Shown: positions 19,776 through 59,408 of the stretch, one piece after another
Position numbering within the stretch: the stretch's first letter is position 1
Layout: the number at the start of each line of letters is the position of its first letter
Origin: Ulva prolifera
Lineage: Eukaryota; Chlorophyta; Ulvophyceae; Ulvales; Ulvaceae
Direction: 5' to 3'
Length of the DNA stretch: 64,000 nucleotides
Assembly: GCA_023078555.1 (NCBI GenBank)
Contig: CM041199.1
Coordinates: 7,073,315-7,137,314, forward strand
Notes under the pieces: model-generated
Seen by the model: only the letters and a program-made list of their open reading frames with translations
Told to the model about the DNA's origin: nothing
Database searches by the model: none
Made by a program: the position numbers and the translations under genes

Positions 19776-22700
19776 GTGTATCGTGTAGCTGTTGCTGTTG
19801 CGCATCCTCAACATCCAAGAGACTGCTGTGACATGTTCCTGCAAAGTGGGGGACGGGGGCATGTCGCCTCCCCCTCCGCTGCGGTCTCACGGCCGCGGAC
19901 CGTTGCCGCAAGAACGGTGCACACTCTCGCTCCAGTCATTCGGACGCGCATCGGCGGACCTTCGCGCCAAATTATGTGTTACCTTCGTGCCACAAACAAG
20001 CGCTACGGTGGAAGGAATCCAACCACAAAGCCCCAGAAAGGTGAGCTTGCACGTATGTGTTCACCGCACCTCTGCCTATGACCGTCACTGCTCGAGCCCA
20101 GATCGCCTGCGGCCGGCAGAGCAAGAGTCTCCGGTGAGTATGGAGAATAGCATCTTCTCATTGGTGTCGCAAGCATGCATATGTGCACGCTGCTCTGTGC
20201 CTGAGCCTGCACGACTGAAGGCCTAGGTGGTCAGCCAGCTTGCTGCTGCACGCTGGAATAACAGACTTCACTGTCACTGGAGTACGTAGGTGGTAGAGGC
20301 AAGTATAGGAGCTCCAAAGAGCCGCCCACCAAGTCCCTGCAGGAGTGCCTGAAGCAAGCAGAGCGAGTGCATGATGCCACAGCCAAGCGACCTGGGGCCC
20401 CCGGTTGGTGCATGCGGGACTTTGCAGCCCTGCCTCGAGGGGCCATCCAGAAGTCTGACGTGGCAGCCTCCGTCCAGGCAGTCACTAGCGTCCTGTCCGG
20501 CGCCCAGAGCGATAGCTTCCACAACAAGCCTGCCCTGCTGTCCAACCTCGGCAAATTTATCCAATCCCAGCCGCCCCTCCGCCAACACCTTCGTCGCGAC
20601 CAAGAGCTCCAGCACAACATCTCTAGCCTATTTGCCATCGCTTCAGCAGATCCGGATTTGTTCTGCAACGCGATTGATGTGTCGCAGCTAGCCACAGCGC
20701 AGCTCAAGCTCAGCCTATACAGCAAAGATTTCTGGGCAAGGGTTGAGCGCTCAGGGCTGGATGGCTTGCCTGGGCGGCAATTCAGCAATGTTGTGTACGC
20801 CTGCGCGAAGCTCCATCAACAGCTTGGCGCGCCACGGTCATCAGTGACTCTTCAGCAATACGTGTGGCATGCTCTCCAGCGGCACGACCATGAGATGCTT
20901 GGCCAGATGAACGCATTCGGTCTGTCAAATCTCTTGTGGTCATTTGCGACGCTGGAGCTGGTAGTCCCTGCTGAGACGCAAGATGCACTTCAGTCCGCCA
21001 CCGTCCGGCTTGCTCCAACCATGGCAGCCCAGGCTGTTGCCAACATCTGGTGGTCATTTGCGAAGCTGGGGCTGTCGGTCCCTGCTCAGACGCATGATGC
21101 ACTTCAGTCTGCCACCGTCCGCCTTGCTCCAGCCATGGTACCACAGGATGTTACCAACATCTGGTTGTCATTTGCGACGCTGGGGCTGGCGGTCCCTGCT
21201 GAGACACATGATGCACTTCAGTCCGCCACCGTCCGCCTTGCTCCAGGCATGGTACCACAGGCTGTTGCCAACACCTGGTGGTCATTTGCAACGCTGGGGC
21301 TGGCGGTCCCTGCTGAGACGCATGATGCACTTCAGTCTGCCACCGTCCGGCTTGCTTCAGGAATGGTACCACAGAACGTTGCCAACATCTGGTGGTCATT
21401 TGCGACGCTGGGGCTGGCGGTCCCTGCTGAGACGCATGATGCACTTCAGTCTGCCACCGTCCGCCTTGCTCCAGCCATGGTACCACAGGCTGTTGCCAAC
21501 ATCTGGTTGTCATTTGCGAAGCTGGGGCTGTCGGTCCCTGCTCAGACACATGATGCACTTCAGTCTGCCACCGTCCGGCTTGCTCCGGCCATGGTACCAC
21601 AGAATGTTGCCAACACCTGGTGGTCATTTGCGACGCTTGGGCTGGTAGTCCCTGCTGAGACGCATGATGCACTTCAGTCTGCCACCGTCCGGCTTGCTCC
21701 GGCCATGCCGCCACAGGCGGTTGCCAACACCTGGTGGTCATTTGCGACGCTGGGGCTGTCGGTCCCTGCTGAGACGCATGATGCACTTCAGTCCGCCACC
21801 GTCCGGCTTGCTCCGGCCATGGTACCGCAGGCTGTTGCCAATACCCTGTGGGCGCTCGGTCTGAACACATTGCAAGGTGAGATGCAGTTCGAGCACTGGC
21901 CACAGGCTGACAAGGCAATTGTGGAAGTAGCAGCTCGGCTTCTGCAACTTTATAACGCTGATGAGGCGTTGGCGCCCAAGGCATTGCGCCAGGTGCACCC
22001 TAATCTCCCCTCATAGGTTTGTCCGTGTACATGACTTAGTTGAACTGTCTGCGTCTCTGCGTCTCTTTGTCTGTGCCTGCACCTGATACAAAGTGCAGTG
22101 CCAGCGGCCGCTGTTGTACAGAGCATGGATAAGCAGTTGTGGTGAGGCAATGCAACAACTGCTGCGGCTGCAGGTGCATGTAGTATCAGAGCTTCTTAGC
22201 CTAGAGCGGCACCTGGGCCCAGAAGGCCTGCCCCTTCTACAGGACTGCAAGGCGGCGACCATTCAGCATGTGGCTGCTGGGGCACTTGATGGTTCTGGGC
22301 AGGAGAGGTCCATCGGTGCTTCGCATGTGGCCATTCTCAAAGAGCTCCGCAGTCTGCCAGAGGTTTCTGAATTTGATGTCACACCCGAGGTGCGCCAGCG
22401 CATCAGCCACAGCGGCTCATACTTTCTCTCCATGCAAATCATTGCACAACATGTCGATGCTTGATGGATGGACCTACTGACCTTCATGGGATCGCACGTG
22501 AGAGATAACCAGTCACATCCAAGTGTTGGCTCTTTGCAGACTGCTGTGCGCTTGTGTGTCTGACTGTGTTGCAATGCGCCGATGTATAAGTGGCGTGCAT
22601 ATGAGCTCCGACCTTGTCAGCCTATAGCTAGCTGTGCCACGCATGGAGGGCACACCCAACCCAGACTCGCAGTTGCCACGGGTGACTCGTAAATCAATGT

Positions 22701-22990
22701 GAAATTGCGTGCAGGCGATCGTGGGTGACGGCTCGAGGCGGGTCGACATCCTGATACAGGGCCGCGGCGTGCGCATCGCCGTTGAGGTCGACGGGCCCTC
22801 GCACTTCATAAAGGACGCCACAGGGCAGGCCGTGTGCGAGACAGGCAGCACCGCGCTGCGTAATTGGCAGCTGCGCGAGTGGGGTTACGCTGTACTGAGC
22901 GTGCCAGTGATGGGCAAGTCACCTGATGAGCTGCGCAGCGCAAAGCACACAGCGTGGTTGTTGCGAGAGCTGCAGGCGCGTGGCGTTTGA
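19776..22990 (+). CDS. OPR-repeat RAP-domain protein, copy 1
   Basis: Predicted organelle RNA-binding protein of the OPR-RAP class, a family used in organelle RNA stability, processing or translation. Model: leader exon 19776-20040 (Arg/Ser-rich, transit-like, starts MYRVAVAVAHP), mini-exon 20102-20133, repeat exon 20265-21992, exon 22174-22389, RAP exon 22715-22990; about 838 residues. The repeat exon has 8 full 38-residue repeats (core WSFATLGL...DALQSATVRLAP) and a degenerate ninth (WALGL). The RAP exon has RRVDILIQG, IAVEVDGPSHF and the closing WLLRELQARGV. A 7-bp deletion relative to other copies puts the usual acceptor (20226) out of frame. An AG at 20264 restores phase, so this copy may splice there or be impaired. 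Confidence 0.72.
20941..21850 (+). repeat. 114-bp tandem coding repeats, OPR array of copy 1
   Basis: The string CATTTGC recurs every 114 bp from 20941 to 21739, giving eight 38-residue repeats. They are nearly identical in DNA. Differences cluster at a few codon positions around the WxSFAxLxL motif. Arrays of the same unit lie at 31615-32641 (10 repeats), 39700-40500 (8), 48070-48760 (7) and 58665-59240 (6). Confidence 0.9.
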
Positions 22991-23307
22991 TGTGACGGGT
23001 GCGAGACGAAGCCATACCCAAACACCAGAGGTGAATGCATGCAGTGCGGGTCTTTCTTCTACAATCGCGTTGCCGCCTGTGCATAGTGTGAGATATTGCT
23101 CGTCTCGAGACCTCCGGCCGATGATCAGTCTCAGTACTGCCACATTCGTAACTACTGCAGCAGTAAACGGTGAAGTAAACAGTTGTTCACCATCTCTAAG
23201 CTCTGCATGGTACGTTTTTCCACGCCGCCCGACGATGGCAGTTTCTCATCTCTTGTGCATGCGTTGTGTGCGGTGCCCCTGGTGCCCACCTGTGTGGTCA
23301 CATCATG
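22991..23307 (+). pseudogene. Unit 2 start: decayed purL exon 9028-9340 3' end and donor
   Basis: After the RAP stop of copy 1, about 200 bp of unique 3' flank passes into DNA that resembles the end of purL exon 9028-9340 and its donor. The block GTGCGGTGCCCCTGGTGCCC at 23268 matches 9341 onward, through GGTCACAT. The exon part is heavily diverged. The match breaks at about 23307, where a 1.7-kb segment absent from unit 4 begins. Confidence 0.55.
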
Positions 23308-25018
23308 CCCGGCCGGCCGGCTGCGCCGGTGCGGAATGTAACCTCATGTCGCGTCCGTCGTCCGTCATACCCATGCGCCACCCCCATGCATCCAGTGGGC
23401 AGTGGTAGGTGTCGATCTCGTGACCACAGGAACGCACAATGCCGGCGGTAGTCCAAGCAGACCAACAAGTATAAGCTTGTAGGTTGAGCTGTGCACAATG
23501 GTGATGTAATGATTGCACCTGTCGCTTCAATAAAAGACCGCAGGACTACACCGCCCTCCGTCATGTACGACCAGCCCTTCAAAGACCCGATCAAGTTGAA
23601 CTGGTCTTGAAGGGTGGTGCAAGCATTCAGGACGGAGTCGCTGACATCGGCATATGTGGTCCCGTTAATTCGGATTTGTCAATGTCCAATAGGATACGGC
23701 TCAGTAAATTTAGATTTACTTTTACTTTACATCGGGGCGGGCGGCAAGGAATCGACGGATGTACGCCTGCGCTGGCCATGTCTTCGGTTCCCGATCGTAC
23801 CAGTCTGGAAGCTTTGCCCCCTTGCACTGGATACGGCCTGATTGCACAAATGTATCGCGATTAAGATTAAGTTGGAAGCCTTTCTCGTGGGCACGCAGCT
23901 GGTTCTCAGTGCAGTTTCACGATTGCAGCGCGCCTGCTCCACACGCCAGGCTGCGCGACTATCTCTCGGTCATCCATGGCTTTGCCGACAGGAAACAATG
24001 CGACCAGATTCCAAAACCTGGAGTGGCTTGCAACAAAACATAGCTGACTCCACACCGGACGCGACAATTGATAAGTCTCCGATTGAAAGACGCAGCAGCA
24101 TCATATGGACTCATGGCATCTACACACGTATCTTGTGTCACACAACTGGATGTTTCCAGTGTCACACGACCCGGGCAAGGTTTAGCTCGTAAACCACCCA
24201 GCCTTTGATACTGATGTGAGCAGCCAGCCATATACTGCTAACTTAGTCTGTGATTAGTGTGTTGCTCACTGCACAATGCTTCCTGAGCAATCCAGGCAGC
24301 GCAATAGCATGTACATCAGCAGGAGAGCTAAATACTTGACATCACACTTCTATGGTGCTTGTTTCGTGCAGTGTCGCTTCCAAGAAGGCTGCAGGTGGTG
24401 TGCAGCAACCCATATATGTCAAAACTGCTGCTGAACCGCCCACAGCACCACCAAATACCAAGACAACCTCGTTATGGGCCATGTATAACTATAATGGATG
24501 TTCTGAGCCCAATGGGCGAGCGCTGGCCAGCGTTGGGCAAAACTTGTCTTCATGCCCAGCCATGCATACGACGGAAAAGTGCGACTTTGCCCAGCGACTT
24601 GAAACAAAGATGCAGTGGCACCCAGGAGGCTTTAATTAGTCTGTAGACGTTCCCAGCGCTTTCCAGAGCGTTCTGAGGTGCCCGCGCTCCCGGTGGACGT
24701 GCATGAGGGCTGAGTGCCCACCCCCCTTGCTAGGTACACCCGAAGAAGCTGCCAACAGATCGCGATGCAGCACAGTGTGCCTACAGACTTACGAAGACTT
24801 ATGACAGCAAAAGCTGCGCATGACCTGTTGTGCTCGCCCCTGTTGCGGGCATGCCGCAGGTTGCAGAGCGGCAGCCGCAGCATGCGCAGTCATGTGTGCC
24901 GCGCCTGCAACTTGTGACTGTGCAGACTCCATGCATAGCCGCCAGTTCGATCTGTCATGTTGCTCACTCATGAGCAAGTCGGCTCTCTGGGCGGAATGTG
25001 TGTGTGTGTGTGTGTGTG
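23308..25018. mobile_element. 1.7-kb segment present in unit 2, absent from unit 4
   Basis: Unit 4 reads straight from GGTCACATCATG (ending 42065) to GTTGTCGACAGACAATG. Unit 2 has about 1711 bp between the same two sequences. The segment has no recognisable gene, contains the minus-strand introner-like copy at 23645-23730 and ends in a (TG)n microsatellite (about 24999-25018). No clear terminal repeats or target duplication are visible, so it could be an insertion in unit 2 or a deletion in unit 4. Confidence 0.5.
23645..23730 (-). mobile_element. Introner-like short dispersed element, minus-strand copy
   Basis: Reverse complement of the purL intron element at 2557-2642, with the same 86-bp length and about 93% identity by eye. 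It starts GTAAAGTAAAAG and ends CCGATG. It lies within the 1.7-kb unit-2-specific segment. Confidence 0.65.
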
Positions 25019-25349
25019 GTTGTCGACAGACAATGTCTCGGTGCATGCGTGGCACAGGAGCAGTCTGGATAATTGGTGGTCAGAACAGTAGCGGGCTGAT
25101 CCCACCTCTGAGGAGGGCTGCCAGGCTTGGGTTGCATCTACGTCCATCAACACACAGACACTGCCAGCAGCTGCCTCTCTGCCGCAGCATGACCCCGCCC
25201 GTGTGATGGCGCCATGGCCATGACTTCGATGTCAGATCGATGACACTTGGCCGCAACGCTGTGCAGCCCGACTGCCGTAGCCCCCGAACGTCCGGCGACC
25301 GATGGAAACATAAACAGCTTCAGAGGTGTCCATCCTAGCTGTGTGGCGC

Positions 25350-27985: not shown

Positions 27986-28087
27986 CAGTGTTGGGTCATC
28001 GGGCCCGATCACATCGAACAGTTCCGAATATCCAGGTCCATTTTTTGGGTGGCAGCCCTGAAAATTCTGCAAAGGGACCCAACACTG
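27986..28087 (+). mobile_element. hAT-like miniature inverted-repeat element, unit 2 spacer
   Basis: A 102-bp element with perfect 12-bp terminal inverted repeats CAGTGTTGGGTC and GACCCAACACTG. It is flanked by CCCCACAC on the left and TCCCACAC on the right, an 8-bp target duplication with one mismatch. Same family as 5429, 34646 and 45037, and shared with unit 4 by duplication. Confidence 0.78.
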
Positions 28088-29883: not shown

Positions 29884-32800
29884 GTGCATCGTGTAGCTGT
29901 TGCTGTTGCGCATCCTCACCACCCAAGAGACTGCTCTGGAATGTTCCTGCAAAGTGGGGGACGTGGGCATGTCTCCTCCCGCTCCGCTGCGGTCTCACGG
30001 ACCGTTGCCACAAGAACGGTGCACACTCTCGCTCCCGTCATTCGGACGCGCATCGGCGGACCTTCGCGCCAAATTATGTGCTACGTTCGTGCCACAAACA
30101 AGCGCTACGGTGGAAGGAATTCAACCACAAAGCCCCAGAAAGGTGAGCTTGCACGTACGTGTTCACTGCACTTCTGCCTATGTGCATCACCGCTCGAGCC
30201 CCAGATCGCCCGTGGCCGGCCGAGCAAGAGTCTCCGGTGAGTACGGAGAATAGCATCTACTGATTGCTTTCGCAAGCATACATACATGCATGCGGTGTAT
30301 GTACATGGATGAGGTGTTCAGGGCAGTGGCCCAGGAGAAACTGGGGGACATCATGTTTATGCCGCCGGGCGACCCTTTGTGCATAGGAGATGTGTCGGTT
30401 GTGAACCCCTGTGCTGGTTCCTATTGCGGCCGTGCGGCCCGCGAGGACGGGGGTGCTGCGGAGACGCGGGACGTGCAGAAACGCACTGCTTATCGTTTGT
30501 ACGACCCTGCTGCGTATAGTTTCGTGCCGTTGTCGCATGAGACGCATGGTCGCTTGGGGCGGCCTGCCATGAATCACTTGAATCGGCTGGCGGAGGTTGC
30601 GTCTCGGTGTGGTAAGGTGACCCGTGCTTTGTTTGTGACGAATGCTCTGCGCCGGTTGAGTGTGGCGTTGTGCAAGGGGAATGCTCTTGTGCTCCGTGCC
30701 GGGCTTCAATCTTTGGCTGGCATCACCGGTAGGGCTGTGGTACGTGCTCGTGCCCGGCCTAGTGCCATGACTGCGTGAGTGGATATGCGTGTGAATTCCT
30801 AGCGATGGCTCGCTGCCCGGCCTCTGTCCTTTGTAACTACATACATGCACGCTGCTCTTTGCATTATCCAGGCCTGCACGACTGCGGTCCCAGGTGGTCA
30901 CCCAGCTTGCTGCTGCCCCAGGCACTCTGGAACACCAGATTTCAGTCTTACTGGAGTATGTAGGTGGTAGAGGCAAGTATAGGAGCTCCAAAGAGCCGCA
31001 GACCAAGTCCCTGCAGGAGTGCCTGAAGCAAGCAGAGCGAGTGCATGATGCCGCAGCCAAGCGACCTGGGGCCCCCGGTTGGTGCATGCGGGACTTTGCA
31101 GCCCTGCCTCGAGGGGCCATCCAGAGGTCTGACGTGGCCGCCTGCGGTCAGGCAATCAATAGCATCCTGTCCTGCGCTCAGAGTGATAGCTATAACCAGA
31201 AGCCTACCCTGCTGTCCAACCTCGGCAAATTTATTCAAGCCCAGCCGCCTGTCCGCCAACACCTTCGTCGCGACCACGAGCTCCAGCAAAACATCTCCAG
31301 CATATTTGCCATCGCTTCAACAGATCCTGATTTGTTCTGCAACGCTATTAATGTGTCACAGCTAGCCACAGCGCAGCTCAAGCTCAGCCTATGCAGCAAA
31401 GATTTCTGGGCAAGGGTTGAGTGCTCAGGCCTGGGTGGCTTGCCTGGGCGGCAATTCAGCAATGTTGTGTATGCCTGCGCGAAGCTGCATCAACAGTCTG
31501 GCGCGCCACGGCCATCAGTGACTCTTCAGCAATGCGTGTGGCATGCTCTCCAGCGGCACGACCATGAGATGCTTGGCCAGATGAACGCATTCGGTCTGTC
31601 AAATCTCTTGTGGTCATTTGCGACGCTGGAGCTGGCAGTCCCTGCTGAGACGCAAGATGCACTTCAGTCCGCCACCGTCCGGCTTGCTCCAACCATGGCA
31701 GCCCAGGCTGTTGCCAACATCTGGTGGTCATTTGCGAAGCTGGGGCTGTCGGTCCCTGCTCAGACGCATGATGCACTTCAGTCTGCCACCGTCCGGCTTG
31801 CTTCAGGAATGGTACCACAGGCTGTTGCCAACATCTGGTGGTCATTTGCGACGCTGAAGCTGGTCATCCCTGCTGAGACGCATGATGCACTTCAGTCTGC
31901 CACCGTCCGGCTTGCTCCAACCATGGTACCACAGAATGTTGCCAACACCTGGTGGTCTTTTGCGACGCTGGGGCTGGCGGTCCCTGCTGAGACGCATGAT
32001 GCACTTCAGTCTGCCACCGTCCGGCTTGCTCCAGCCTTGGTACCACAGACTGTTGCCAACACCTGGTGGTCGTTTGCGACACTGGGGCTCGCGGTCCCAG
32101 CTGAGACGCATGATGCACTTCAGTCTGCCACCGTCCGGCTTGCTCCGGCCATGCCGCCACAGGAGGTTGCCAACATCTGGTGGTCATTTGCGACACTGGG
32201 GCTGGTGGTCCCTGCTGAGACGCATGATGCACTTCAGTCTGCCACCGTCCGCCTTGCTCCAGCCATGGTACCACAGGCTGTTGCCAACATCTGGTTGTCA
32301 TTTGCGAAGCTGGAGCTGGTCGTCCCTGCTGAGACGCATGATGCACTTCAGTCCGCCACCGTCCGGCTGGCTCCGGCCATGGTACCACAGGATGTTGCCA
32401 ACATCTGGTGGTCATTTGCGACGCTGAAGCTGGTCATCCCTGCTGAGACGCATGATGCACTTCAGTCTGCCACCGTCCGGCTTGCTCCAACCATGGTACC
32501 ACAGAATGTTGCCAACACCTGGTGGTCATTTGCGACGCTGGGGCTGGCGGTCCCTGCTCAGACGCATGATGCACTTCAGTCTGCCACCGTCCGCCTTGCT
32601 CCAGCCATGGTACCACAGGCTGTTGCCAACATCTGGTTGTCATTTGCGAAGCTGGACCTTGTCGTCCCTGCTAAGACGCATAGCGCACTTCAGTCTGCCA
32701 CCATCCGGCTTGCTCCAGCCATGGCATTGCAGGACGCTGCCAACATCCTGTGGGCGCTCGGGGTAGATGCAGTGCAAGGCGAGAGGCAGGGCGAGCACTG

Positions 32801-33759
32801 GCGACGTGCTGACAAGGCGATCGTGGAAACAGCAGCTCGCCTGTTGCAACTCTATACTGCTGTTGAGGTGTTGGCGCCCAAGGCATTGCGCCAGGTGCAC
32901 GCTAATCTCCCCTCATAGTTCTGTCCGTGCACACAATTGTCGGGGTTTCTGCGTCTCGTTGTCTGTGCCTGCACCTGATACAGAATGCAGTGGCCTGTGG
33001 CCGCTGGTGTACAGAGCATGGATGAGCAATTGTGGGGAGGCAATGCATCAACTACTGCGGCTATAGGTGCATGCAGTATCAGAGCTTCTTAGCCTAGAGC
33101 GGCACCTGGGCCCAGAAGGCCTGCCCCTCCTACAGGACTGCAAGGCGGCCACCATTGAGTATGTGGCTGGTGGGGCGCTTGATGGAAAAGGTGCCGGGCA
33201 GGAGAGATCCATCGGTGCTTCGCATGTGGCTGTTCTGGAAGAGCTCCGAAGCCTGCCAGGGGTGTCTGAATATAGAATCACACCTGAGGTGCGCCACTGC
33301 GTCGGTTGGTGCACTCATACTGCGTGGTGTCTGTATCACCGCGCTGCAATGTGCCAATGCATATGGGTCATGCATATGGGATCCGATCTTGTCAGCCTAG
33401 CTGTGCCACGCATGGAGGGCACACCCCATCCAGACTCGCAATTGCCGCGGGTGACTCATAGTCTAGTATGCTATGGCTTGCAGGCGGTCGTGGGCGATGG
33501 CTCGAGGCGGGTCGACATCCTGCTACAGGGCCGTGGCGTGCGCATCGCTGTCGAGGTGGACGGGCCCTCGCACTACATCAAGGACGCCACAGGGCGGGTT
33601 GTGCGCGAGACAGGCAGCACCGCCCTGCGCGACTGGCAGCTCCGCGAGTGGGGGTACGCTGTACTGAGCGTGCCGGTGACAGACAAGTCGCCTGCGGAGC
33701 TGCGCAGCGCGGAGCACACAGCGTGGCTGCTGCGCGAGCTGCAGGCGCGTGGTGTTTGA
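29884..33759 (+). CDS. OPR-repeat RAP-domain protein, copy 2 (largest repeat array)
   Basis: Model: leader exon 29884-30142 (MHRVAVAVAHP, transit-like), mini-exon 30205-30236, repeat exon 30894-32894, exon 33067-33288, RAP exon 33484-33759; all phases agree and give about 929 residues. It carries 10 full 38-residue OPR repeats plus the terminal WALGV unit, the most in the cluster. RAP motifs: RRVDILLQG, IAVEVDGPSHY, REWGYAVLSVPV. Exon 4 is two codons longer than in the other copies. The last intron (33289-33483) is 195 bp with no in-frame stop, so retention would add 65 residues. A truncated LINE lies in intron 2. Probable role: organelle RNA maturation or translation; RNA target unknown. Confidence 0.82.
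30291..30837 (+). mobile_element. 5'-truncated LINE in intron of OPR copy 2
   Basis: Carries only the restriction-like endonuclease end of the LINE at 54260-57890, starting at GATGAGGTGTTCAGGGCAGT (30308) and differing at few positions. It has the same 3' tail and the stop ending at 30778. A 12-bp target duplication TACATACATGCA flanks it (30279-30290 and 30838-30849). Sixteen bases (30291-30306) at the 5' junction match neither flank nor LINE and may be filler. Same strand as the host gene; there is no poly(A) tail. Confidence 0.85.
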
Positions 33760-34200: not shown

Positions 34201-34219
34201 CATCTTGTGCGGCGCTGTG

Positions 34220-38526: not shown

Positions 38527-41500
38527 GTGCATCGGGTAGCTGTTGCTGTTGCGCATCCTAACCACCCAAGAGACTGCTGTGGAATGTTCCTGCAAAGTGG
38601 GGGACATGGGCATGTCTCCTCCCGCTCCGCTGCGGTCTCACGGACCGTTGCCTCAAGAACGGTGCACACTCTCGCTCCCGTCATTCGGACGCGAATCGAC
38701 GGACCTTCGCGCCAAATTATGTGCTACGTTCGTGCCACAAACAAGCCCTACGGTGGAAGGTTTTCAACCACAAAGCCCCAGAAAGGTGAGCTTGCACGTA
38801 CGTGTTCACTGCACTTCTGCCTATGTGCATCGCCGCTCGAGCCCCAGATCGCCTGTGGCCGGCACAGCAAGAGCCTCCGGTGAGTACGGAGAATAGCATC
38901 TACTGATTGCTTTCGCAAGCATACATACATGCACGCTGCTCTTGACATAATCCAGGCCTGCACGACTGCGGTCCCAGGTGGTCAGCCAGCTTGCCGCTGC
39001 CCCAGGCACTCTGGAACACCAGATTTCAGTCTCACTGGAGTATGTAGGTGGTAGAGGCAAGTACAGGAGCTCCAAAGAGCCGCAGACCAAGTCCCTGCGA
39101 GAGTGCCTGAAGCAAGCAGAGCGAGTGCATGATGCCGCAGCCAAGCGACCTGGGGCCCCCGGTTGGTGCATGCGGGACTTTGCAGCCCTGCCTCGAGGGG
39201 CCATCCAGAGGTCTGACGTGGCCGCCTGCGTCCAGGCAATCACTAGCATCCTGTCCTGCGCTCAGAGCGATAGCTTTAACCAGAAGCCTACCCTGCTGTC
39301 CAACCTCGGCAAATTTATTCAAGCCCAGCCGCCTGTCCGCCAACACCTTCGTCGCGACCACGAGCTCCAGCAAAACATCTTCAGCCTTTTCGCCGTTGCT
39401 TCAACAGATCCACATTTGTTCTGCGACGCTATTGATGTGTCACAGCTGGCCACAGCGCAACTCAAGCTCAGCCTATACAGCAAAGATTTCTGGGCAAGGG
39501 TTGAGTGCTCAGGGCTGGATGGCTTGCCTGGGCGGCAATTCAGCAATGTGGTGTATGCCTGCGCGAAGCTCCATCAACAGCTTGGCGCGCCACGGCCATC
39601 AGTGACTCTTCAGCAGTGCGTGTGGCATGCTCTCCAGCGACACGACCATGAGATGCTTGGCCAGATGAACGCATTCGGTCTGTCAAATCTCTTGTGGTCA
39701 TTTGCGACGCTTGGGCTGGTAGTCCCTGCTGAGACGCAAGATGCACTTCAGTCTGCCACTGTCCGGCTTGCTCCAGCCATGGTACCACAGGCTGTTACCA
39801 ACATCTGGTTGTCATTTGCGAAGCTGGGGCTGTCGGTCCCTGCTGAGACGCATGATGCACTTCAGTCCGCCACCGTCCGCCTTGCTCCAGCCATGGTACC
39901 ACAGGCTGTTGCCAACACCTGGTTGTCATTTGCAAAGCTGGGGCTGTCAGTCCCTGCTGACACGCATGATGCACTTCAGTCTGCCACCGTCCGGCTTGCT
40001 CCAGCCATGGTACCACAGGCTGTTGCCAACACCTGGTGGTCATTTGCGACGCTTGGGCTGGTAGTCCCTGCTCAGACGCGTGATGCACTTCAGTCTGCCA
40101 CCGTCCGCCTTGCTCCAGCCATGGTACCACAGGATGTTACCAACATCTGGTTGTCATTTGCGACGCTGGGGCTGTCGGTCCCTGCTGAGACGCATGATGC
40201 ACTTCAGTCCGCCACCGTCCGCCTTGCTCCAGCCATGGTACCACAGGCTGTTGCCAACACCTGGTGGTCATTTGCAACGCTGGGGCTGGCGGTCCCTGCT
40301 GAGACACATGATGCACTTCAGTCCGCCACCGTCCGCCTTGCTCCAGCCATGGTACCACAGGCTGTTGCCAACACCTGGTGGTCATTTGCGACGCTTGGGC
40401 TGGTAGTCCCTGCTGAGACGCATGATGCACTTCAGTCTGCCACCGTCCGGCTTGCTCCGGCCATGCCGCCACAGGAGGTTGCCAACACCTGGTGGTCATT
40501 TGCGACGCTGGGGCTGTCGGTCCCTGCTGAGACGCATGATGCACTTCAGTCCGCCACCGTCCGGCTTGCTCCGGCCATGGTACCGCAGGCTGTTGCCAAC
40601 ACCCTGTGGGCGCTCGGTCTGAACACATTGCAAGGTGAGATGCAGTTCGAGCACTGGCCACGGGCTGACAAGGCAATTGTGGAAGTAGCAGCTCGGCTTC
40701 TGCAACTTTATAACGCTGATGAGGCGTTGGCGCCCAAGGCATTGCGCCAGGTGCACCCTAATCTCCCCTCATAGGTTTGTCCGTGTACATGACTTAGTTG
40801 AACTGTCTGCGTCTCTGCGTCTCTTTGTCTGTGCCTGCACCTGATACAAAGTGCAGTGCCAGCGGCCGCTGTTGTACAGAGCATGGATAAGCAGTTGTGG
40901 TGAGGCAATGCAACAACTGCTGCGGCTGCAGGTGCATGTAGTATCAGAGCTTCTTAGCCTAGAGCGGCACCTGGGCCCAGAAGGCCTGCCCCTTCTACAG
41001 GACTGCAAGGCGGCGACCATTCAGCATGTGGCTGCTGGGGCACTTGATGGTTCTGGGCAGGAGAGATCCATCGGTGCTTCGCATGTGGCCATTCTCAAAG
41101 AGCTCCGCAGTCTGCCAGAGGTTTCTGAATTTGATGTCACACCCGAGGTGCGCCAGCGCATCAGCCACAGCGGCTCATACTTTCTCTCCATGCAAATCAT
41201 TGCACAACATGTCGATGCTTGATGGATGGACCTACTGACCTTCATGGGATCGCACGTGAGAGATAACCAGTCACATCCAAGTGTTGGCTCTTTGCAGACT
41301 GCTGTGCGCTTGTGTGTCTGACTGTGTTGCAATGCGCCGATGTATAAGTGGCGTGCATATGAGCTCCGACCTTGTCAGCCTATAGCTAGCTGTGCCACGC
41401 ATGGAGGGCACACCCAACCCAGACTCGCAGTTGCCACGGGTGACTCGTAAATCAATGTGAAATTGCGTGCAGGCGATCGTGGGTGACGGCTCGAGGCGGG

Positions 41501-41748
41501 TCGACATCCTGATACAGGGCCGCGGCGTGCGCATCGCCGTTGAGGTCGACGGGCCCTCGCACTTCATAAAGGACGCCACAGGGCAGGCCGTGTGCGAGAC
41601 AGGCAGCACCGCGCTGCGTAATTGGCAGCTGCGCGAGTGGGGTTACGCTGTACTGAGCGTGCCAGTGATGGGCAAGTCACCTGATGAGCTGCGCAGCGCA
41701 AAGCACACAGCGTGGTTGTTGCGAGAGCTGCAGGCGCGTGGCGTTTGA
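38527..41748 (+). CDS. OPR-repeat RAP-domain protein, copy 3
   Basis: The cleanest copy. Leader exon 38527-38785, mini-exon 38848-38879, repeat exon 38978-40750, exon 40932-41147, RAP exon 41473-41748; phases agree, about 851 residues, no insertions. The leader is Arg/Ser-rich and rich in hydroxylated residues, consistent with an organelle transit peptide. Eight 38-residue OPR repeats plus the terminal WALGL unit are followed by a leucine-rich linker (SELLSLERHLGPEGLPLLQD) and the RAP domain (RRVDILIQG, IAVEVDGPSHF). From about 40.4 kb on it is nearly identical to copy 1, while the upstream repeats differ, which points to exchange inside the repeat array. Confidence 0.85.
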
Positions 41749-46897: not shown

Positions 46898-49800
46898 GTG
46901 CATCGTGTAGCTGTTGCTGTTGCGCATCCTAACCACCCAAGAGACTGCTGTGGAATGTTCCTGCAAAGTGGGGGACATGGGCATGTCTCCTCCCGCTCCG
47001 CTGCGGTCTCACGGACCGTTGCCTCAAGAACGGTGCACACTCTCGCTCCCGTCATTCGGACGCGCATCGGCGGACCTTCGCGCCAAATTATGTGCTACGT
47101 TCGTGCCACAAACAAGCACTACGGTGGAAGGAATTCAACCACAAAGCCCCAGAAAGGTGAGCTTGCACGTACGTGTTCACTGCACTTCTGCCTATGTGCA
47201 TCACCGCTCGAGCCCCAGATCGCCTGTGGCCGGCAGAGCAAGAGCCTCCGGTGAGTACGGAAAGTAGCATCTACTGATTTCTTTCGCAAGCATACATACA
47301 TGCGCGCTGCTCTTAGCATAATCCAGGCCTGCACAACTGCGGTCCCAGGTGGTCAGCCAGCTTGCTGCTGCACCAGGCACTCTGGAACACCAGATTTCAG
47401 TCTCACTGGAGTATGTAGGTGGTAGAGGCAAGTACAGGAGCTCCAAAGAGCCGCAGACCAAGTCCCTGCGAGAGTGCCTGAAGCAAGCAGAGGTAGTGCA
47501 TGATGCCGCAGCCAAGCGACCTGGGGCCCCGGGTTGGTGCATGCAGGCCTTCGCGGCCCTGCCTCGAGGGGCCATCCAGAGGTCTGACGTGGCCGCCTGC
47601 GGTCAGGCAATCACTAGCATCCTGTGCTGCGCTCAGAGCGATAGCTTTAACCAGAAGCCTACCCTGCTGTCCAACCTCGGCAAATTTATTCAAGCCCAGC
47701 CGCCTGTCCGCCAACACCTTCGTCGCGACCACGAGCTCCAGCAAAACATCTTCAGCCTTTTCGCCGTTGCTTCAACAGATCCACATTTGTTCTGCGACGC
47801 TATTGATGTGTCACAGCTGGCCACAGCGCAACTCAAGCTCAGCCTATACAGCAAAGATTTCTGGGCAAGGGTTGAGTGCTCAGGGCTGGATGGCTTGCCT
47901 GGGCGGCAATTCAGCAATGTGGTGTATGCCTGCGCGAAGCTCCATCAACAGCTTGGCGCGCCACGGCCATCAGTGACTCTTCAGCAGTGCGTGTGGCATG
48001 CTCTCCAGCGACACGACCATGAGATGCTTGGCCAGATGAACGCATTCGGTCTGTCAAATCTCTTGTGGTCATTTGCGACGCTGGGGCTGTCAGTCCCTGC
48101 TGACACGCATGATGCACTTCAGTCTGCCACCGTCCGGCTTGCTCCAGCCATGGTGCCACAGGATGTTGCCAACACCTGGTGGTCATTTGCAACGCTGGGG
48201 CTGTCGGTCCCAGCTGAGATGCATGATGGACTTCAGTCTGCCACCGTCCGGCTTGCTCCATTCATGGTACCACAGAATGTTGCCAATACCTGGTGGTCAT
48301 TTGCAACGCTGGGGCTGGCGGTCCCTGCTGAGACGCATGATGCACTCCAGTCTGCCACCGTCCGGCTTGCTCCAGCCATGGTGCCACAGGCTGTTGCCAA
48401 CATCTGGTGGTCATTTGCGACGCTGGGGCTGTCGGTCCCTGCTGAGACACATGACGCACTTCAGTCTGCCACCGTCCGGCTTGCTCCAGCCATGGTACCA
48501 CAGGATGTTACCAACATCTGGTTGTCATTTGCAAAGCTGGGGCTGTCAGTCCCTGCTGACACGCATGATGCACTTCAGTCTGCCACCGTCCGGCTTGCTC
48601 CGGCCATGCCGCCACAGGAGGTTGCCAACACCTGGTGGTCATTTGCAACGCTGGGGCTGTCGGTCCCAGCTGAGATGCATGATGCACTTCAGTCTGCCAC
48701 CGTCCGGCTTGCTCCATTCATGGTACCACAGAATGTTGCCAATACCTGGTGGTCATTTGCAACGCTGGGGCTGGCGGTCCCAGCTGAGATGCATGATGCA
48801 CTTCAGTCCGCCACCGTCCGGCTTGCTCCGGCCATGCCGCCACAGGAGGCTGCCAACATCCTGTGGGCGCTCGGTTTAAACTCATTGCAAGGTGAGATGC
48901 AGTGCGCGGACTGGCCACGGGCTGACAAGGCAATTGTGGAAACAGCAGCTCGGCTTTTGCAACTTTATAACGCTGATGAGGCGTTGGCGCCCAAGGAATT
49001 GTGCCAGGTGCGCCCTGATGTCCCCTCATAGGTTTGTCGGTGTACATAGCTGTCTGCGTCTCTGCGCCTCGTTGTCTGTGCCTGCACCTGATACAAAGTG
49101 AAGTGATCAGTGGCCGCTGCTGTACGTATATATAGCATGGATATCAATTATCGATAAGCAATTGTGGTGAGGCAATGCAACAACTACTAGTACTGCGGCT
49201 GTAGGTGCATGCAGTCTCAGAGCTTCTTAGCCTAGAGCGGCACCTGGGCCCAGAAGGCCTGCCCCTTCTACAGGACTGCAAGGCGGCGACCATTCAGCAT
49301 GTGGCTGGTGGGGCGCTTGATGGTTCTGGGCACGAGAGATCCATCGGTGCTTTGCATGTGGCTGTTCTGGAAGAACTCCAAAGCCTGCCAGAGGTGTCTG
49401 AATTCAAAATCACACCTGAGGTGCGCCAGCGTGGCGGCTATTGCGCTCATTCTGTGTTGTTTTTTAATCACCGCGCTGCAATGTGCCGATGCATACATGT
49501 CATGCATACGATCTTGTCAGCCTCGCTGTGCCACGCATGGAGGGTCGCAATGGCCATCCAGGCTCGCAATGGCCGCGGGTGACACATAGTCTAGTAAGCT
49601 GTGGTGTGCAGGCGGTCGTAGGTGATGGCTCGAGGCGGGTCGACATCCTGTTGCAGGGCTGCGGCGTGCGCATCGCCATCGAGGTCGATGGGCCCTGGCA
49701 CTACATCAAGGACGCCACCGGGCGGGCCGTGCGCGAGACAGGCAGCACCACCCTGCGCAACTGGCAGCTCCGCGAGTGGGGGTACGCCATACTGAGCGTG

Positions 49801-49983
49801 CCGGTGACAGACAAGTCGCCTGCGGAGCTGCGCAGCGCGGAGCACACAGCGTGGCTGCTGCGAGAGCTGCAGGCGCGTGGTGTGTGGTGTGACGGGTGCA
49901 ATAAGAAGCCACACCTAAACACCAAAGATAAACACATACGGTGCGGATCTTCCTTCTACAACAGCGTTGCGACCTTTGCATAG
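46898..49983 (+). CDS. OPR-repeat RAP-domain protein, copy 4 (extended C-terminus)
   Basis: Leader exon 46898-47156, mini-exon 47219-47250, repeat exon 47349-49007, exon 49205-49420, RAP exon 49612-49983; about 845 residues. Seven full 38-residue OPR repeats plus a terminal WALGL unit. RAP motifs: RRVDILLQG, IAIEVDGPWHY (Trp for the usual Ser), REWGYAILSVPV. In the other copies the protein stops right after LQARGV. Here the stop codon has changed and the frame runs on for 32 residues (WCDGCNKKPHL... to a TAG at 49981), adding several cysteines. Whether the tail is used is unknown. Likely organelle RNA factor. Confidence 0.8.
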
Positions 49984-53200: not shown

Positions 53201-53847
53201 CGCGGGGCTGGAACAGCGAGCATGTCATACATCCGATCTGACACATCATGTCGAGACTTGAGCGGGCATCCATCGTCGCACTGAAATAGAAAATCGGCAC
53301 ACGGTTGCAGCTGCCGAGCGCTCTTCCTTGAAAAACTTGAATGGCAATTCCGTGCCCAAGCACGAGGTCTAGAGAGAAGTCGTACATGAACGAGCATAAT
53401 ACGCCGTGAAAGCGTGTGAAAATCAGTAATCGTCGATGTCCCATGCATCGTCTCAGAAGCTGGTGCATCAGATAGACCATGCTTTCAAGGCGGTTTTCTG
53501 ACGCCAACGAGGACAGCTGCGAAGCTGGCAAAACCTAAAACGCACCATTTAGCAGAATTCTTCGGTTATTGTGCATTTCATTCGCAGTGGAGTTCCTATT
53601 TGTGGTAAGCCATCCTCTCGGCAACTGACACTTAGCGTGCAAGCACCCGCTGCAGCGCTCTGCTTGACCGTGCTTGCTGAGGTGCCACATCGGCTCAAAG
53701 TCAAATGGGCTTTCAGAGTGAGCAGACGCGCAACATCCAGATGCGTAATGTGTTTGGGCTATTCAGTCCAGCTCCTCGAGGTCAGACAGACGCTCTCCCT
53801 GCGCAGGCACACGTTCTGCAACGCCAAACGTTCGCAGGGCGACACGG
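50226..53847. other. Unit 5 spacer: purL 3' flank, kinase remnant, OPR upstream DNA
   Basis: 50.25-50.75 kb matches 35.1-35.6 kb. 50.95-51.32 kb is the kinase 3' end and flank, close to unit 3. 51.5-53.8 kb is the OPR upstream spacer with the CACATATAAA motif at 52788. The minus-strand frame 53001-53531 is the unit 5 version of the conserved small frame. No gene is recognised. Confidence 0.45.
51125..51320 (-). pseudogene. Kinase 3'-end remnant, unit 5
   Basis: Matches 36400-36600 and the parental kinase end at 13230-13400 (GCCTGACACACCACAGCAAC). The kinase domain is absent. Confidence 0.55.
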
Positions 53848-54259
53848 GTGCATCGTGTAGCTGTTGCTGTTGCGCATCCTCACCACCCAAGAGACCGCTT
53901 TGAAATGTTCTTGCAATGTGGGGGACGGGGGCATGTCGCCTCCCAATCCGCTGCGGTCTCAAGGACCGTTGCCACAAGAACGGTGCACACTCTCGCTCCC
54001 GTCATTCGGACGCGCAACAGCGGACCTTCGCGCCAAATTATGTGTTGCGTTCGTGCCACAACTAAGCGCTACGGTGGAAGGAATCCAACCACAAAGCCCC
54101 AGAAAGGTGAGCTTGCACATATGTGTTCACCGCACTCTGCCTATGACCGGCACTGCTCGAGCCGCAGATCGCCTGTAGCCGGCAGAGCAAGAGTCTCCGG
54201 TGAGTACGGAGAATAGCATCTACTGATTGCTTTCGCAAGCATACATACATGCACGCTGC

Positions 54260-57200
54260 GGACAAGCCGCAGCGCTAGTCTCTCCTCCCATTCAAGTCTG
54301 TTCACCCACATCCGAGGAATCCATCGCGACGGGCCGAGGCTGCCTACTGCGAAGCTGCACGAACTCAATGCCGCGTACTGCTCTCACTGTGGCATATTGG
54401 GCTCCACCAAGACCCCTAAGGCGCATAAATGTGTGGGAGGTCAGAACAGGAGCTTGAGGTCAGGTCACTGCGTGCTGCCCGCCACACATCCGGCCCGACA
54501 GCCCGCCCCAGCCCAACCCGCCCCAGCCCAGCCCATCCCTGCCCAGCCCGCCCCAGCCCAGCCCGCCCAGCCGCAGCCCGCCCAGCCGCAGCCTGCCCAG
54601 CCTGCCCAGCCGCACCCCCATCAGCCACCCCGTCACTTCACCGAAGCCCCCGCCGCCGCCCACAACACCGCCCAGCCCAGGCCCTCCCGGAAGGTCCCGG
54701 ACACCGTCCATCCGGAGTTCGGCGACGCAACGGCCGAGCTCCTCAGAGATTTCAACGATGCCAGCGACGCGTCAAACATCGACGGAGCACGACTGGCCCT
54801 GGGCCGCGTCCTCGACTTCCCTGGTAAGGTTCTGTCGCTGAAGGGAGGGGACGGCACGGCGCGCCGCGCTCGTTCATGCATCACGCTGTTCATGGACGGC
54901 GAGGAGCCCAGGCTGGCGGAGCCCACTCCGAGCCAGAAGCGCAGAATGAATCAGAACCAGGATCGCCGCCTGGCGGGCTCCGTCCACAGGTCACTGAGCG
55001 ACGGTAATGTCCGCAAAGGCGCGGAGAAAGTGGAGGCGCCGCCCATCGCCAGGTACACCCCGGAAGTGCATGAGGCGCTGCGGCACCTGCATCCCGCAGA
55101 AGCGCTCCCCCCCGACACCCAGCCCGCCGAGCCCGCGCCCCCGCTGCAAATCGACGAGGCGACGCTCCGCGCACTGCTCGACAAGCTGCCGAAGGGCAGC
55201 GGCCCAGGCCTGTCGGGGTGGACGTATGAGCACATCCGGGCTGCTGGCACGGCCTCCACGGCCGCATTCACGGAGATTCACCGCTTCGTGAACGCGGCCC
55301 TCGCCGGCCGGCTGCCACACCTCCCGCGCTTGCTGGACTGCCGCCTCCTCCCGCAGGAGAAGCCACAGGGAGGCGTCCGCCCTATTGCCATTGCAGAGAC
55401 GTGGCAGCGCCTGGTAAGCCTGTGCGCCATGACCCTGTGCAGTGGCCTGGGTGCCTCCCTCGCGCCGCTGCAGGTGGGGGTCGGGGTGCCAGGGGGCGCG
55501 CAGAACCTGGGCCATGCTGCGCGCGCCGTGCTGCAAGCGTGGGACGATGTCGTGCTTGTGCAGCTGGACTGGAAGAATGCATTCAACATGATGTCCCGTG
55601 CAGCCATCTTGGAGGCCGTTGCGTCTCACAAGCCTGCGCTGCTGCCCTTCGCCACCATGCTTTACAGGTTCCCCGCAAATCTCTACATCGAAGGCGCACC
55701 GCCCGGCACCGCTGCAATCACGTCGCAGCGCGGCGTGCGTCAAGGCGACCCCATCAGCCCGCTGCTCTTCGCCCTGGCCCTCCAGGGCCCCCTCCAGGCA
55801 GTGCAGGCCCAGCACCAGCCACCCGGGAGGGAGGTCACGGCCGCCCTCATGGCGTATCATGACGACTGCACCATCGCCGGGCAGCGCGTGGACGCCGCCG
55901 CCGCATTCCGTGCGCTGGTCTCGGCAGCAGAGCCCCTCGGGCTGGAGCCCCAGCTGCACAAGTGCACGGCCTACTCGCGCGACCCCCAGCATGCGGGATC
56001 CGTCGCGGCCGCGCTCGGCATAACGCATGCCACAGAGGGCACCGTCATCACCGGCACGCCCATCGGCACCCCGGCGTTCGAGTCGGCGCACGCGGAAGCG
56101 ACGGCCGACAAGGTGTGCGCCACCATCGAAAAGATGATGCGCTTGCCCCTGAAAGCGCAAGACCAGTTCTTGCTGCTCACGATGTCCTGCCAACGCCGTA
56201 TGCTGCACTACGCCAGGGCGGTGCCGTGGGCGCACATTTCCGATCACATGCGCCGGACGGAGGCGTCCGTCCTGGCTGCGGTGAATGAAATCATGCGCGT
56301 CCCGCGGGACGACACTCGTGCGGCCGCACAAGCCGTCCTTCCAGCGCGCCTCGGAGGCCTGGGCGTCACGTCCACGCCGCAGGAGGTCGCGGACGGAGCG
56401 TACCTCGCTGCAGCGGCGGTGAGCCAAAAGGCGTTCGCAGGAGGCCCCGAGTGCATGCAGCCGTACCGGGGGCCGCACGGGCAACAATTGCAGGAAACCT
56501 GGCAGGCCCTCAACGTCGCTCAGCAGCTCCATCCGGAGCTGCCCGGGCCGGCGAGCGGCGACACCATCGCCAAGGTGTTACCTGGTATGCAGCAGCGTAT
56601 CACTAAGTTGGTTGCCCTGCGCCGCCGGGCGGCTCTGCTTGCCAGCCATGACGTCGCCACGCTCGAGGGTGCATGCAACTTGGCACGGCTTCGCAGCTGT
56701 GCTTGCCGTGCAGCCACCCTTTGGTTGAGCACCCTGCCGCTCTCCCAGGCGCTGCGCATGACTGACATTGAGTTCATGCTGTGCATCAGGTATCTCCTGG
56801 GCATGTCCCCAGCCCCTCCCAATGCGGTCGGCTCGCGCTGCGAATGTGGCACTCTCATACAGCCGCATGATCTCGATCACGCGATGAATTGCACACACAA
56901 TGCGGGGACCTGGACTTCGCGCCACAATATCGTTGAAAAACAATGGCGCGAGATCGGGTCCCACGCGTGTGTGGCATCCACGCGCATCCCGCGCACAGCG
57001 CCGTTCGTCCGCGCGCGGCTCGCGGCCGCATCGAGGCAGATCCATGCTGGCCCGTTGGGCCCGACCCCCCCTGCTCCGCCCCAGCCCGCCTCCCAGGTCG
57101 CGGGCCCTTCGCGTGGGGCAGCCTTGCCCGCGGCGCCGATGCCTGCAGCCCCGCCGCCGCCGCCGACCGCGCGCGCGGACGAGGCGCCGGCACCTACGCC

Positions 57201-57831
57201 TGCTCCGGCCGCCGACGCCGATGCTGGACACAGCGCCCAGATGGGGCGCCACGCGCCAGACGCGGCGCAGGCTGCGGCCCTGGCGGCGGCGGGGGCGCCG
57301 GGTGGTCAGGATCCAGCGGGGCCTGGGGAGCAGGCCGCAGCCGCGCAGGCAACGGCGCTGGATGAGGTGTTCAGGGCAGTGGCCCAGGAGAAACTGGGGG
57401 ACATCATGTTTATGCCGCCGGGCGACCCTTTGTGCATAGGAGATGTGTCGGTTGTGAACCCCTGTGCTGGTTCCTATTGCGGCCGTGCGGCCCGCGAGGA
57501 CGGGGGTGCTGCGGAGACGCGGGACGTGCAGAAACGCACTGCTTATCGTTTGTACGACCCTGATGCGTATAGTTTCGTGCCGTTGTCGCATGAGACGCAT
57601 GGTCGCTTGGGGCGGCCTGCCATGAATCACTTGAATCGGCTGGCGGAGGTTGCGTCTCGGTGTGGTAAGGTGAACCGTGCTTTGTTTGTGACGAATGCTC
57701 TGCGCCGGTTGAGTGTGGCGTTGTGCAAGGGGAATGCTCTTGTGCTCCGTGCGGGGCTTCAATCTTTGGCTGGCATCACCGGCCGAGCTGTGGTACGTGC
57801 TCGTGCCCGGCCTAGTGCCATGACTGCGTGA
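54260..57831 (+). CDS. LINE polyprotein: zinc finger, reverse transcriptase, zinc knuckle, restriction-like endonuclease
   Basis: The frame is open from the element's 5' end to the TGA at 57829-57831, with no obvious start; from a TTG at 54397 it has 1144 residues. Order: an N-terminal finger (CSHC...HKC, 54379-54438); a Pro/Ala/Gln tract of PAQP repeats; reverse transcriptase from about 55200 (GVRPIAIAETW, LDWKNAFNMMSR, GVRQGDPISPLLF); a catalytic MAYHDDC box near 55850, where His replaces the usual residue before DD; a CxC...H...C knuckle near 56838; an Ala/Pro-rich linker; and a C-terminal nuclease (GDPLCIGDVSVVNP, a Lys in VQKRTAY, PLSHETHGRLGRPAMNHL). This layout is known from R2-like and other early-branching LINEs, which often target specific sites. 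It looks intact. Clade not assigned. Confidence 0.88.
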
Positions 57832-57890
57832 GTGGATTTGCGTGTGTATTCCTGGCAACGGCTCGCTGCCCGGCCTCTGTCCTTTGTAAC
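54260..57890 (+). mobile_element. LINE (non-LTR retrotransposon) with restriction-like endonuclease
   Basis: A 3.6-kb element in an intron of OPR copy 5, same strand. The 14-bp target duplication TACATGCACGCTGC lies at 54246-54259 and 57891-57904. There is no poly(A) tail; it ends CCTTTGTAAC. One open frame covers almost all of it. A 547-bp truncated relative lies at 30291. Confidence 0.9.
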
Positions 57891-59408
57891 TACATGCACG
57901 CTGCTCTTGACATAATCCAGGCCTGCACGACAGCGGTCCCAGGTGGTCAGCCAGCTTGCCGCTGCCGCAGGCACGCTGGAACACCAGGTTTCAGTCTCAC
58001 TGGAGTATGTAGGTGGTAGAGGCAAGTACAGGAGCTCCAAAGAGCCGCAGACCAAGTCCCTGCGAGAGTGCCTGAAGCAAGCAGGGCGAGTGCATGATGC
58101 CGCTGCCAAGCGACCTGGGGCCCCCGGTTGGTGCATGCAGTCCTTTGCGGCCTTACCTCGAGGGGCCATCCAGAAGTCTGATGTGGCCGCCTGCGTCCAG
58201 GCGGTCACTCGCGTCCTTTCCTGCGCTCGAAACGAAAGCTTCCACAACAAGCCTGCCCTGCTGTCCAACCTCGGCAAACTTTTTCAAGCCCAGCCACCTC
58301 TCCGCCAACACCTTCGTCGCGACCATGAGCTCCAGCAAAACATCTCCAGCCTTTTCGCCGTTGCTTCAACAGATCCTGATTTGTTCTCCGATGCTATTAA
58401 TGTATCACAGCTAGCCACAGCGCAGCTCAAGCTCAGCCTATACAGCAAAGATTTCTGGGCAAGGGTTGAGTGCTCAGGGCTGGATGGCTTGCCTGGGCGG
58501 CAATTCAGCAATGTTGTGTATGCCTGCGCGAAGCTCCATCAACAGTGCAGTGCGCCACGGCCATCAGTGACCCTGCAGCAGTGCGTATGGCATGCTCTCC
58601 AGGAGAGTGATTATGAGCTTCTCGGCAAGATGAACGCATTCGATCTGTCAAATATCTTGTGGTCATTTGCGACGCTAGGGCTTGCAGTGCCTGCTGAGGC
58701 GCATGATGCACTACAGTCCGCCACCGTCCGGCTTGCTCCGGCCATGGTACCACAGAGTGTTGCCAACATCTGGTGGTCCTTTGCAACGCTGGGGCTGACG
58801 GTCCCTGCTGAGACACATGATGCACTTCAGTCTGCCACCGTCCGGCTTGCTCCGGCCATGCCGCCACAGGAGGTTGCCAACACCTGGTGGTCATTTGCGA
58901 AGCTGGGGCTGGCGGTCCCTGCTGAGATGCATGATGCCCTTCAGTCTGCCACCGTCCGGCTTGCTCCATTCATGGTACCACAGAATGTTGCCAATACCTG
59001 GTGGTCATTTGCAACGCTGGGGCTGGCGGTCCCTGCTGAGACACATGACGCACTTCAGTCTGCCACCGTCCGGCTTGCTCCGGCCATGCCGCCCCAGGAG
59101 GTTGCCAACACCTGGTGGTCATTTGCAACGCTGGGGCTGTCGGTCCCAGCTGAGATGCATGATGCACTTCAGTCCGCCACTGTCCGGCTTGCTCCAGCCA
59201 TGGTACCACAGACTGTTGCCAACACCTGGTGGTCATTTGCGACGCTGGGGCTGTCGGTCCCTGCTGCGACGCATGATGCACTTCAGTCCGCCACCGTCCG
59301 GCTTGCTCCGGCCATGGCACCGCAGGCTGTTGCCAACACCCTGTGGGCGCTCGGTCTGAACACATTGCAAGGTGAGATGCAGTTTGAGCACTGGCCACGG
59401 GCTGACAA

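Follow-up and report, generated by a model that had tools for sequence, protein, structure and literature searches.

A tandem OPR-RAP cluster with near-identical repeat units in Ulva prolifera

We analyzed a 64,000-bp stretch of nuclear DNA from the green alga Ulva prolifera, C4:7073315-7137314 in an assembly of 88.9 Mb and 44 contigs, which is called the window below. An RbcS exon fragment matched small subunits of plants and algae, 8q04 being the best match; the best-matching chains are green algal. The window holds five members of a tandem cluster of genes, each consisting of an array of near-identical 38-residue OPR units followed by a C-terminal RAP domain. Amino-acid change among these units is concentrated at few positions, and the arrays have been remade by block duplication and differ between copies whose flanks are nearly identical. 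The cluster probably represents an NCL-type family of algal OPR-RAP genes that behaves like the restorer-of-fertility PPR clusters, in other words a set of organelle RNA-targeting factors with remade arrays.

First, the extent of the cluster was determined. Tandem Repeats Finder reported 114-bp arrays of 8.0, 9.8, 8.0, 7.0, and 6.0 copies at positions 20932, 31606, 39694, 48065, and 58659 of the window. When read in frame, the five copies (g1 to g5) contained 8, 10, 8, 7, and 6 full 38-residue units, the same numbers as those obtained by an earlier reading of the sequence alone. That sequence-only reading had placed the family at 19776..59408. Five copies indeed start within this interval, which was nevertheless too narrow, because the cluster extends past the window to at least C4:7154218, with two further copies of 12 units (g6) and 13 units (g7). 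The tandem cluster thus has seven copies in total, and an unlinked, diverged copy with 10 units (c2) is found on contig C2. A family relative with in-frame stops lies close to this intact copy, at C2:3490398-3491170. Altogether, the eight arrays comprise 74 full units, and a stop codon was found in none of them. A profile search of the genome gave a RAP match behind every array, these being 8 of the at least 13 RAP matches listed. An ordinary OPR-RAP relative was also present in the genome, at C1:5922233-5925161, with an N-terminal region 51% identical and a RAP match nearby. Its repeats are degenerate, in contrast to the homogenized units of the cluster, and only a single unit scores near the amplified type. 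Since the nearest ordinary relative has degenerate repeats, the homogenized arrays look like the derived state. The cluster is best read as a recently expanded nuclear OPR-RAP family and is bigger than first noted.

The identity of the encoded proteins, which had been proposed from the sequence alone, was supported by domain and fold comparisons. The Pfam family FAST_1 scored above the whole-protein cut-off in all three main exons scanned, although this score is a sum of weak matches of which no single stretch passes, and RAP scored above the cut-off in the one last exon scanned. No PPR family was found in the Pfam scan of the exons, and the unit is 38 residues long, not 35 as in a PPR. A search of the PDB with the g3 sequence gave no match at an E value of ≤1. 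The W-x-S-F-A motif was present in 65 of the 66 core units and is comparable to the LWALAR motif described for the OPR protein CCS2 (PMC5541062), while VPAET is the usual reading where PPPEW would stand in an OPR repeat.

The structure was predicted using AlphaFold2 with seven aligned main exons. In the g3 model, the predicted local distance difference test score (pLDDT) was 85 to 96 over residues 271 to 520 and 73 to 83 in the first and last units. Each unit is predicted to form two antiparallel helices, helix A (positions 2 to 15) and helix B (positions 21 to 37), and the array is predicted to form an alpha-solenoid. Among the first 20 Foldseek matches of the model, 19 were chains from trypanosome RNA-editing or mitoribosome entries and 1 was an ATP synthase chain. 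The matches at an E value of ≤0.001 included Polytomella mitoribosome chains and the chains 7pkt_O (E value, 2.6e-8), 7pkt_P, and 7pkt_M of the Chlamydomonas mitoribosome, in which OPR proteins have been described (PMC8660880). The predicted fold is thus similar to those of organelle RNA-binding solenoids.

Amino-acid change is concentrated at few positions of the unit

To describe the variation, we numbered the unit as V1 P2 Q3 x4 V5 A6 N7 x8 W9 x10 S11 F12 A13 x14 L15 x16 L17 x18 V19 P20, and so on to position 38. Diversity was counted without the opening unit of each array (8 of the 74 units), as its initial codons are part of the region before the array, which left 57 cluster units and 9 c2 units. 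The mean DNA identity between repeats of the same array was 89 to 94% over all arrays and 89 to 93% for the cluster arrays, as high as had been claimed at the outset; the least alike pair inside one cluster array still shared 83% of its nucleotides.

Among the 57 cluster units, 6 of the 38 positions (1, 4, 8, 14, 18, and 37) carried 66% of the nonsynonymous diversity, and 15 positions were without any amino-acid change. These results rule out an even spread over the 38 residues, which the sequence-only reading had set against its own interpretation, and the concentration of change at few positions is real. The per-codon comparison suggested in that reading was carried out as the ratio of nonsynonymous to silent diversity (piN/piS). 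In the cluster, the ratio was above 1 at each of the six positions (3.26 at position 4, 2.79 at 18, 2.31 at 1, 1.99 at 8, 1.85 at 37, and 1.22 at 14), with lower bounds of 1.08 to 2.61 when genes were bootstrapped. Positions 16, 10, and 22 followed with 0.98, 0.91, and 0.82. The ratio was 0.52 for the whole unit, 2.25 when the six variable positions were pooled, and 0.21 for the remaining positions. Since the units exchange sequence, such diversity ratios took the place of a tree-based codon model.

Position 4 was the most variable, with seven residues in the 57 cluster units (A, 21; N, 11; D, 10; E, 7; T, 6; S, 1; and H, 1), all of them small or polar. The variable positions form two groups: 37, 1, 4, and 8 cover the junction and the N-terminal half of helix A, and 14, 16, and 18 lie where helix A ends and in the loop between the helices. 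Silent diversity per site was 0.14 to 0.16 in helix A, the loop, and helix B; the junction positions, 38 and 1, had a higher value of 0.36. The variable residues listed in the sequence-only reading correspond to positions 8, 10, 14, 16, and 18. The clustering that it described was borne out, but the list missed position 4, the strongest, as well as positions 1 and 37, and three of its members partly covary. Positions 10, 14, and 16 were considered as independent code letters and rejected: L10 and K14 occurred together in 11 of the 57 units, L10 alone in 2, and K14 alone in 4, suggesting that they partly mark a repeat subtype. Position 10 as a code letter is further weakened by the ordinary relative on C1, in which W was kept at this position in all five repeats read by eye.

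We then compared the cluster with c2. This copy is well diverged, with a proportion of silent differences (pS) of 0.46 from the cluster in the N-terminal region and with units averaging 86% identity to the cluster units. When c2 was scored at the six positions chosen in the cluster, 67% of its amino-acid diversity was found there, and four of the five top cluster positions also varied in c2 (hypergeometric P value, 0.002). D and N were found at position 4 in both sets on different silent backgrounds, the third base being T in 48 of the 57 cluster units and C in all 9 c2 units. Therefore, the code-like clustering is repeated in a diverged, unlinked array.

Turnover of arrays through block duplication

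Comparison of units and flanks showed that the arrays have been rearranged. An exact 538-bp duplication is present in g7, its two copies lying five units apart, and units 3 to 7 and 8 to 12 have identical letters at the six positions compared. The strings of residues at position 4 differ among all eight arrays. Of the 3,000 bp upstream of the array, which include the N-terminal coding part, 2,861 bp show 99.5% identity between g3 and g6, yet these copies have 8 and 12 units, respectively. Downstream of the array, g1 and g3 share 1,486 bp at 99.8% identity. Block duplications and changed arrays beside conserved flanks give substance to the repeat shuffling that had been supposed for this family.

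Comparison with known repeat protein families

An NCL (NCC1/NCC2-like) OPR-RAP cluster was reportedly described in Chlamydomonas reinhardtii by Boulouis et al. in 2015. Like NCL, the Ulva cluster consists of tandem nuclear paralogues with an OPR array followed by a C-terminal RAP domain. The NCL family is described as OPR-RAP paralogues with 7 to 12 repeats (PMC8635915), a range that overlaps the wider one of 6 to 13 found here, and tandem duplication is stated for 10 NCL proteins (PMC13126933). Mutated OPR repeats of NCL proteins are described as having gained new chloroplast mRNA targets (PMC8635915 and PMC5541062). The units inside one Ulva protein are near copies of each other (89 to 94% at the DNA level); NCL enters this comparison by its published description. 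In a 2026 survey of OPR proteins (PMC13126933), the repeats of any single protein mostly belong to several motif clusters, unlike the Ulva arrays, which are made of near-identical units. The Ulva units also differ from those of the OPR expansion in Paulinella chromatophora, where the repeat motif is described as degenerate (PMC7729196).

The cluster also resembles the plant RFL clusters of P-class PPR genes, as far as these are portrayed in PMC7380019 and PMC5075784: the genes are clustered, sequence is exchanged between units and between genes, and diversity is found at few positions of conserved repeats, which in the RFL genes are code residues. It is unlike them in having a 38-residue unit instead of the 35-residue PPR and in having a RAP domain, while the RFL proteins, as described in PMC5075784, are without an added domain that is likely a nuclease. 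The PPR code is said to have been built on the high substitution at few residues of the conserved RFL repeats (PMC5075784), and comparable evidence for OPRs is available in the Ulva cluster. Base choice by PPR proteins is influenced most strongly by residues 5 and 35 (PMC7380019); the group of positions 37, 1, 4, and 8 may be placed comparably, by analogy only. The figures of PMC13126933 mark one primary specificity position of the OPR repeat, along with three upstream ones, and a thesis is cited as the source. The basis of OPR specificity was said in 2017 to be still awaiting decipherment (PMC5541062), and a 2025 review regards the precise function of the OPR repeat and of its PPPEW motif as unknown (PMC12691811). 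The Ulva units differ at few positions and are therefore easy to swap and measure, which makes the family useful for finding an OPR code and could help to show how OPR proteins recognize RNA.

A more far-reaching possibility, which we put forward tentatively, is that the cluster serves as a naturally occurring library of near-isogenic OPR units. In this library, position 4 (A, D, N, E, T, S, H, or G), helped by positions 1/37 and 18, would be the base-selecting code, which the alga would use in an arms race against organelle transcripts that keep changing. The family would then be an OPR-based counterpart of restorer-of-fertility genes with its own nuclease-like domain.

Proposed mechanism and alternative explanations

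If the family consists of organelle RNA-targeting factors, as we propose, each gene would encode an alpha-solenoid, built from 6 to 13 nearly identical OPR units of 38 residues, with a RAP domain behind it. The protein would enter an organelle, where the solenoid would bind single-stranded RNA with roughly one unit per base. The base would be chosen by position 4 with its neighbors 1, 8, and 37 and perhaps 14 and 18. Organelle import, RNA binding, and the organelle targets of the arrays are what we infer, and an action of the RAP domain on the bound RNA, which it would cut or destabilize, is proposed in line with the probable endonuclease activity described for this domain (PMC13126933). Unequal exchange and conversion between units and genes would produce new strings of units and, with them, new targets, as proposed for Chlamydomonas NCL and plant RFL.

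Several of our results weigh against this interpretation, and they are given here together with the alternatives that they favor. The six positions were picked after the data had been seen. The overlap between the cluster and c2 was weaker at other cut-offs (P values of 0.08 for the top 3 positions and 0.04 for the top 9), and positions 18 and 14, the former ranking second in the cluster, were invariant in c2. In addition, piN/piS at the same six positions was 0.95 in c2, so that the values above 1 hold for the cluster only. Silent diversity was itself raised at the six variable codons of the cluster (0.228 versus 0.151 overall), and as a consequence, the pooled ratio would drop from 2.25 to about 1.5. 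Single four-fold silent sites reached a heterozygosity of 0.45, near the values of 0.46 and 0.52 for the first and second bases of codon 4. We rejected a firm claim of positive selection because of the c2 ratio, the higher silent diversity at the six variable codons, and the spread among silent sites.

Some of these results favor concerted evolution with relaxed constraint, in which amplification and conversion homogenize the units, the variable positions are those tolerated by the fold, and no change of target is selected: the ratio in c2 is close to that expected without selection, silent diversity is raised at the very codons that vary, and single silent sites approach the diversity of position 4. 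We consider this alternative less likely, because when positions were chosen in some cluster genes and scored in others, the ratio was still 1.8 to 2.6, although the genes exchange sequence and are not independent, and because position 4 is restricted to small or polar residues. The exposed residues of helix B also argue against it. They vary little except for position 22 (0.95 bits), position 36 having 0.37 bits, and since most of them are conserved, exposure alone does not explain the pattern. Selection for amino-acid change at the variable positions is suggested by the comparison of sequences.

The predicted surface and the composition of the proteins also fit the RNA-targeting reading imperfectly. 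On a helical wheel, which cannot tell the concave side, positions 4, 10, and 14 share the exposed side of helix A with the invariant residues Q3, N7, and S11, and position 8 turns toward the hydrophobic side. The net charge of the arrays (K+R minus D+E) was −5 to −16. The grooves of solved OPR structures are described as rich in Lys and Arg (PMC8660880), and the negative arrays therefore speak against simple charge-driven RNA binding. The first 60 residues were only mildly basic, with 7 K/R and 3 to 4 D/E in five of the six modeled copies, and they were rich in Ser and Pro. The negative charge would agree with a variable face that binds protein partners instead of RNA, as in a diversifying protein-recognition solenoid, and the Polytomella ATP synthase chains 6rd4_2 and 6rd5_3 were among the 50 fold matches listed. 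Such a role appears improbable to us, given that a RAP exon lies behind each array, that 19 of the first 20 fold matches were chains of RNA-protein complexes, and that the OPR-RAP proteins NCC1 and NCC2 are described as acting on chloroplast RNA (PMC8635915).

Finally, two copies may be broken. The 5′ end of g1 (around position 20206) had no in-frame join to the small upstream exons in the gene model, and g5 is interrupted by an insertion of about 4.66 kb. Together with the related copy on C2 that contains in-frame stops, these two copies might indicate a decaying, transposon-ridden family of pseudogenes in which variation reflects drift. This explanation is very improbable as an account of the whole family. 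The 74 full units of the eight copies are free of stop codons, and g2, g3, g4, g6, and g7 are open from the ATG to the array. Constraint was also evident from the ratio of nonsynonymous to silent differences (pN/pS), which was 0.24 for the RAP exon and 0.39 for the N-terminal region; the cap that follows the array gave 0.51.

Structure of the gene copies

All copies in the window are on the forward strand, and their exon joins were deduced from splice sites and frame. The main exon has the same plan throughout, a conserved N-terminal region, the array, and a C-terminal cap; a common donor site ends the cap in seven of the eight copies, g5 being cut before this site. In g2, g3, g4, g6, and g7, two small upstream exons join in frame from an ATG. 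A short exon between the array and the RAP exon was modeled in six copies; two in-frame donors are common to all six, and the later one was chosen. The RAP exon codes for 91 residues followed immediately by a stop in g1, g2, g3, g5, and g7 and by a stop one residue later in c2, while the frame continues beyond 91 residues in g4 and g6.

The main exon of g1 (20262..21992), with 8 repeats at 20910-21821, was recognized by its open frame, its units, and a FAST_1 whole-protein score above the cut-off. It is followed by the exon between array and RAP at 22174..22389, placed by splice sites and frame with a putative 3′ end, and by the last exon at 22715..22990, whose frame and match to PF08373 define a RAP domain of 91 residues plus a stop. 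For g2, the gene model has a first exon at 29969..30142, a main exon at 30872..32894 with 10 repeats (31584-32723), also marked by its units and by FAST_1, and a RAP exon at 33484..33759, identified by its RAP match. The first exons of g2, g3 (38606..38785), and g4 (46977..47156) might encode organelle presequences, judging from their composition. In g3, units, frame, and gene model agree on a main exon at 38956..40750 with 8 repeats (39668-40579); the AlphaFold2 prediction was made on 38951-40750. The exon between array and RAP at 40932..41147 was placed by splice sites and frame, with a putative 3′ end as in g1, and the RAP exon at 41473..41748 was supported by a RAP match, the frame, and Pfam. 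The g4 main exon (47327..49007), defined in the same way by units, frame, and gene model, has 7 repeats (48039-48836), and a RAP match at 49612..49884 marks an exon of 91 residues homologous to those of the other copies, after which the frame reads on.

The main exon of g5 (57916..59409), with 6 repeats at 58633-59316, is cut at 59409, as its units and the analysis of the insertion indicate. The inserted element (59410..64000 in the window, without an assigned strand) runs past the window end and is recognized by its inverted ends and by a target duplication of 3 bp; what remains of g5, including the RAP exon, is located behind it, beyond the window. We take the ends of this element to look like those of a CACTA transposon. 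Inside it, an open reading frame (ORF) at 61360-62169 on the reverse strand has a subthreshold match to DUF4218. An ORF of 1144 amino acids with a reverse transcriptase domain is found at 54397-57831, directly 5′ of g5, and the stretch just 5′ of g5 is also found in a g2 intron, between 30236 and 30872. Elsewhere in the window, an ORF at 13244-15229 on the reverse strand has a partial protein kinase match and contains a 66-bp tandem repeat at 13916-14200, and the left part of the window contains a 251-bp tandem duplication at 10148-10629 with 90% matches.

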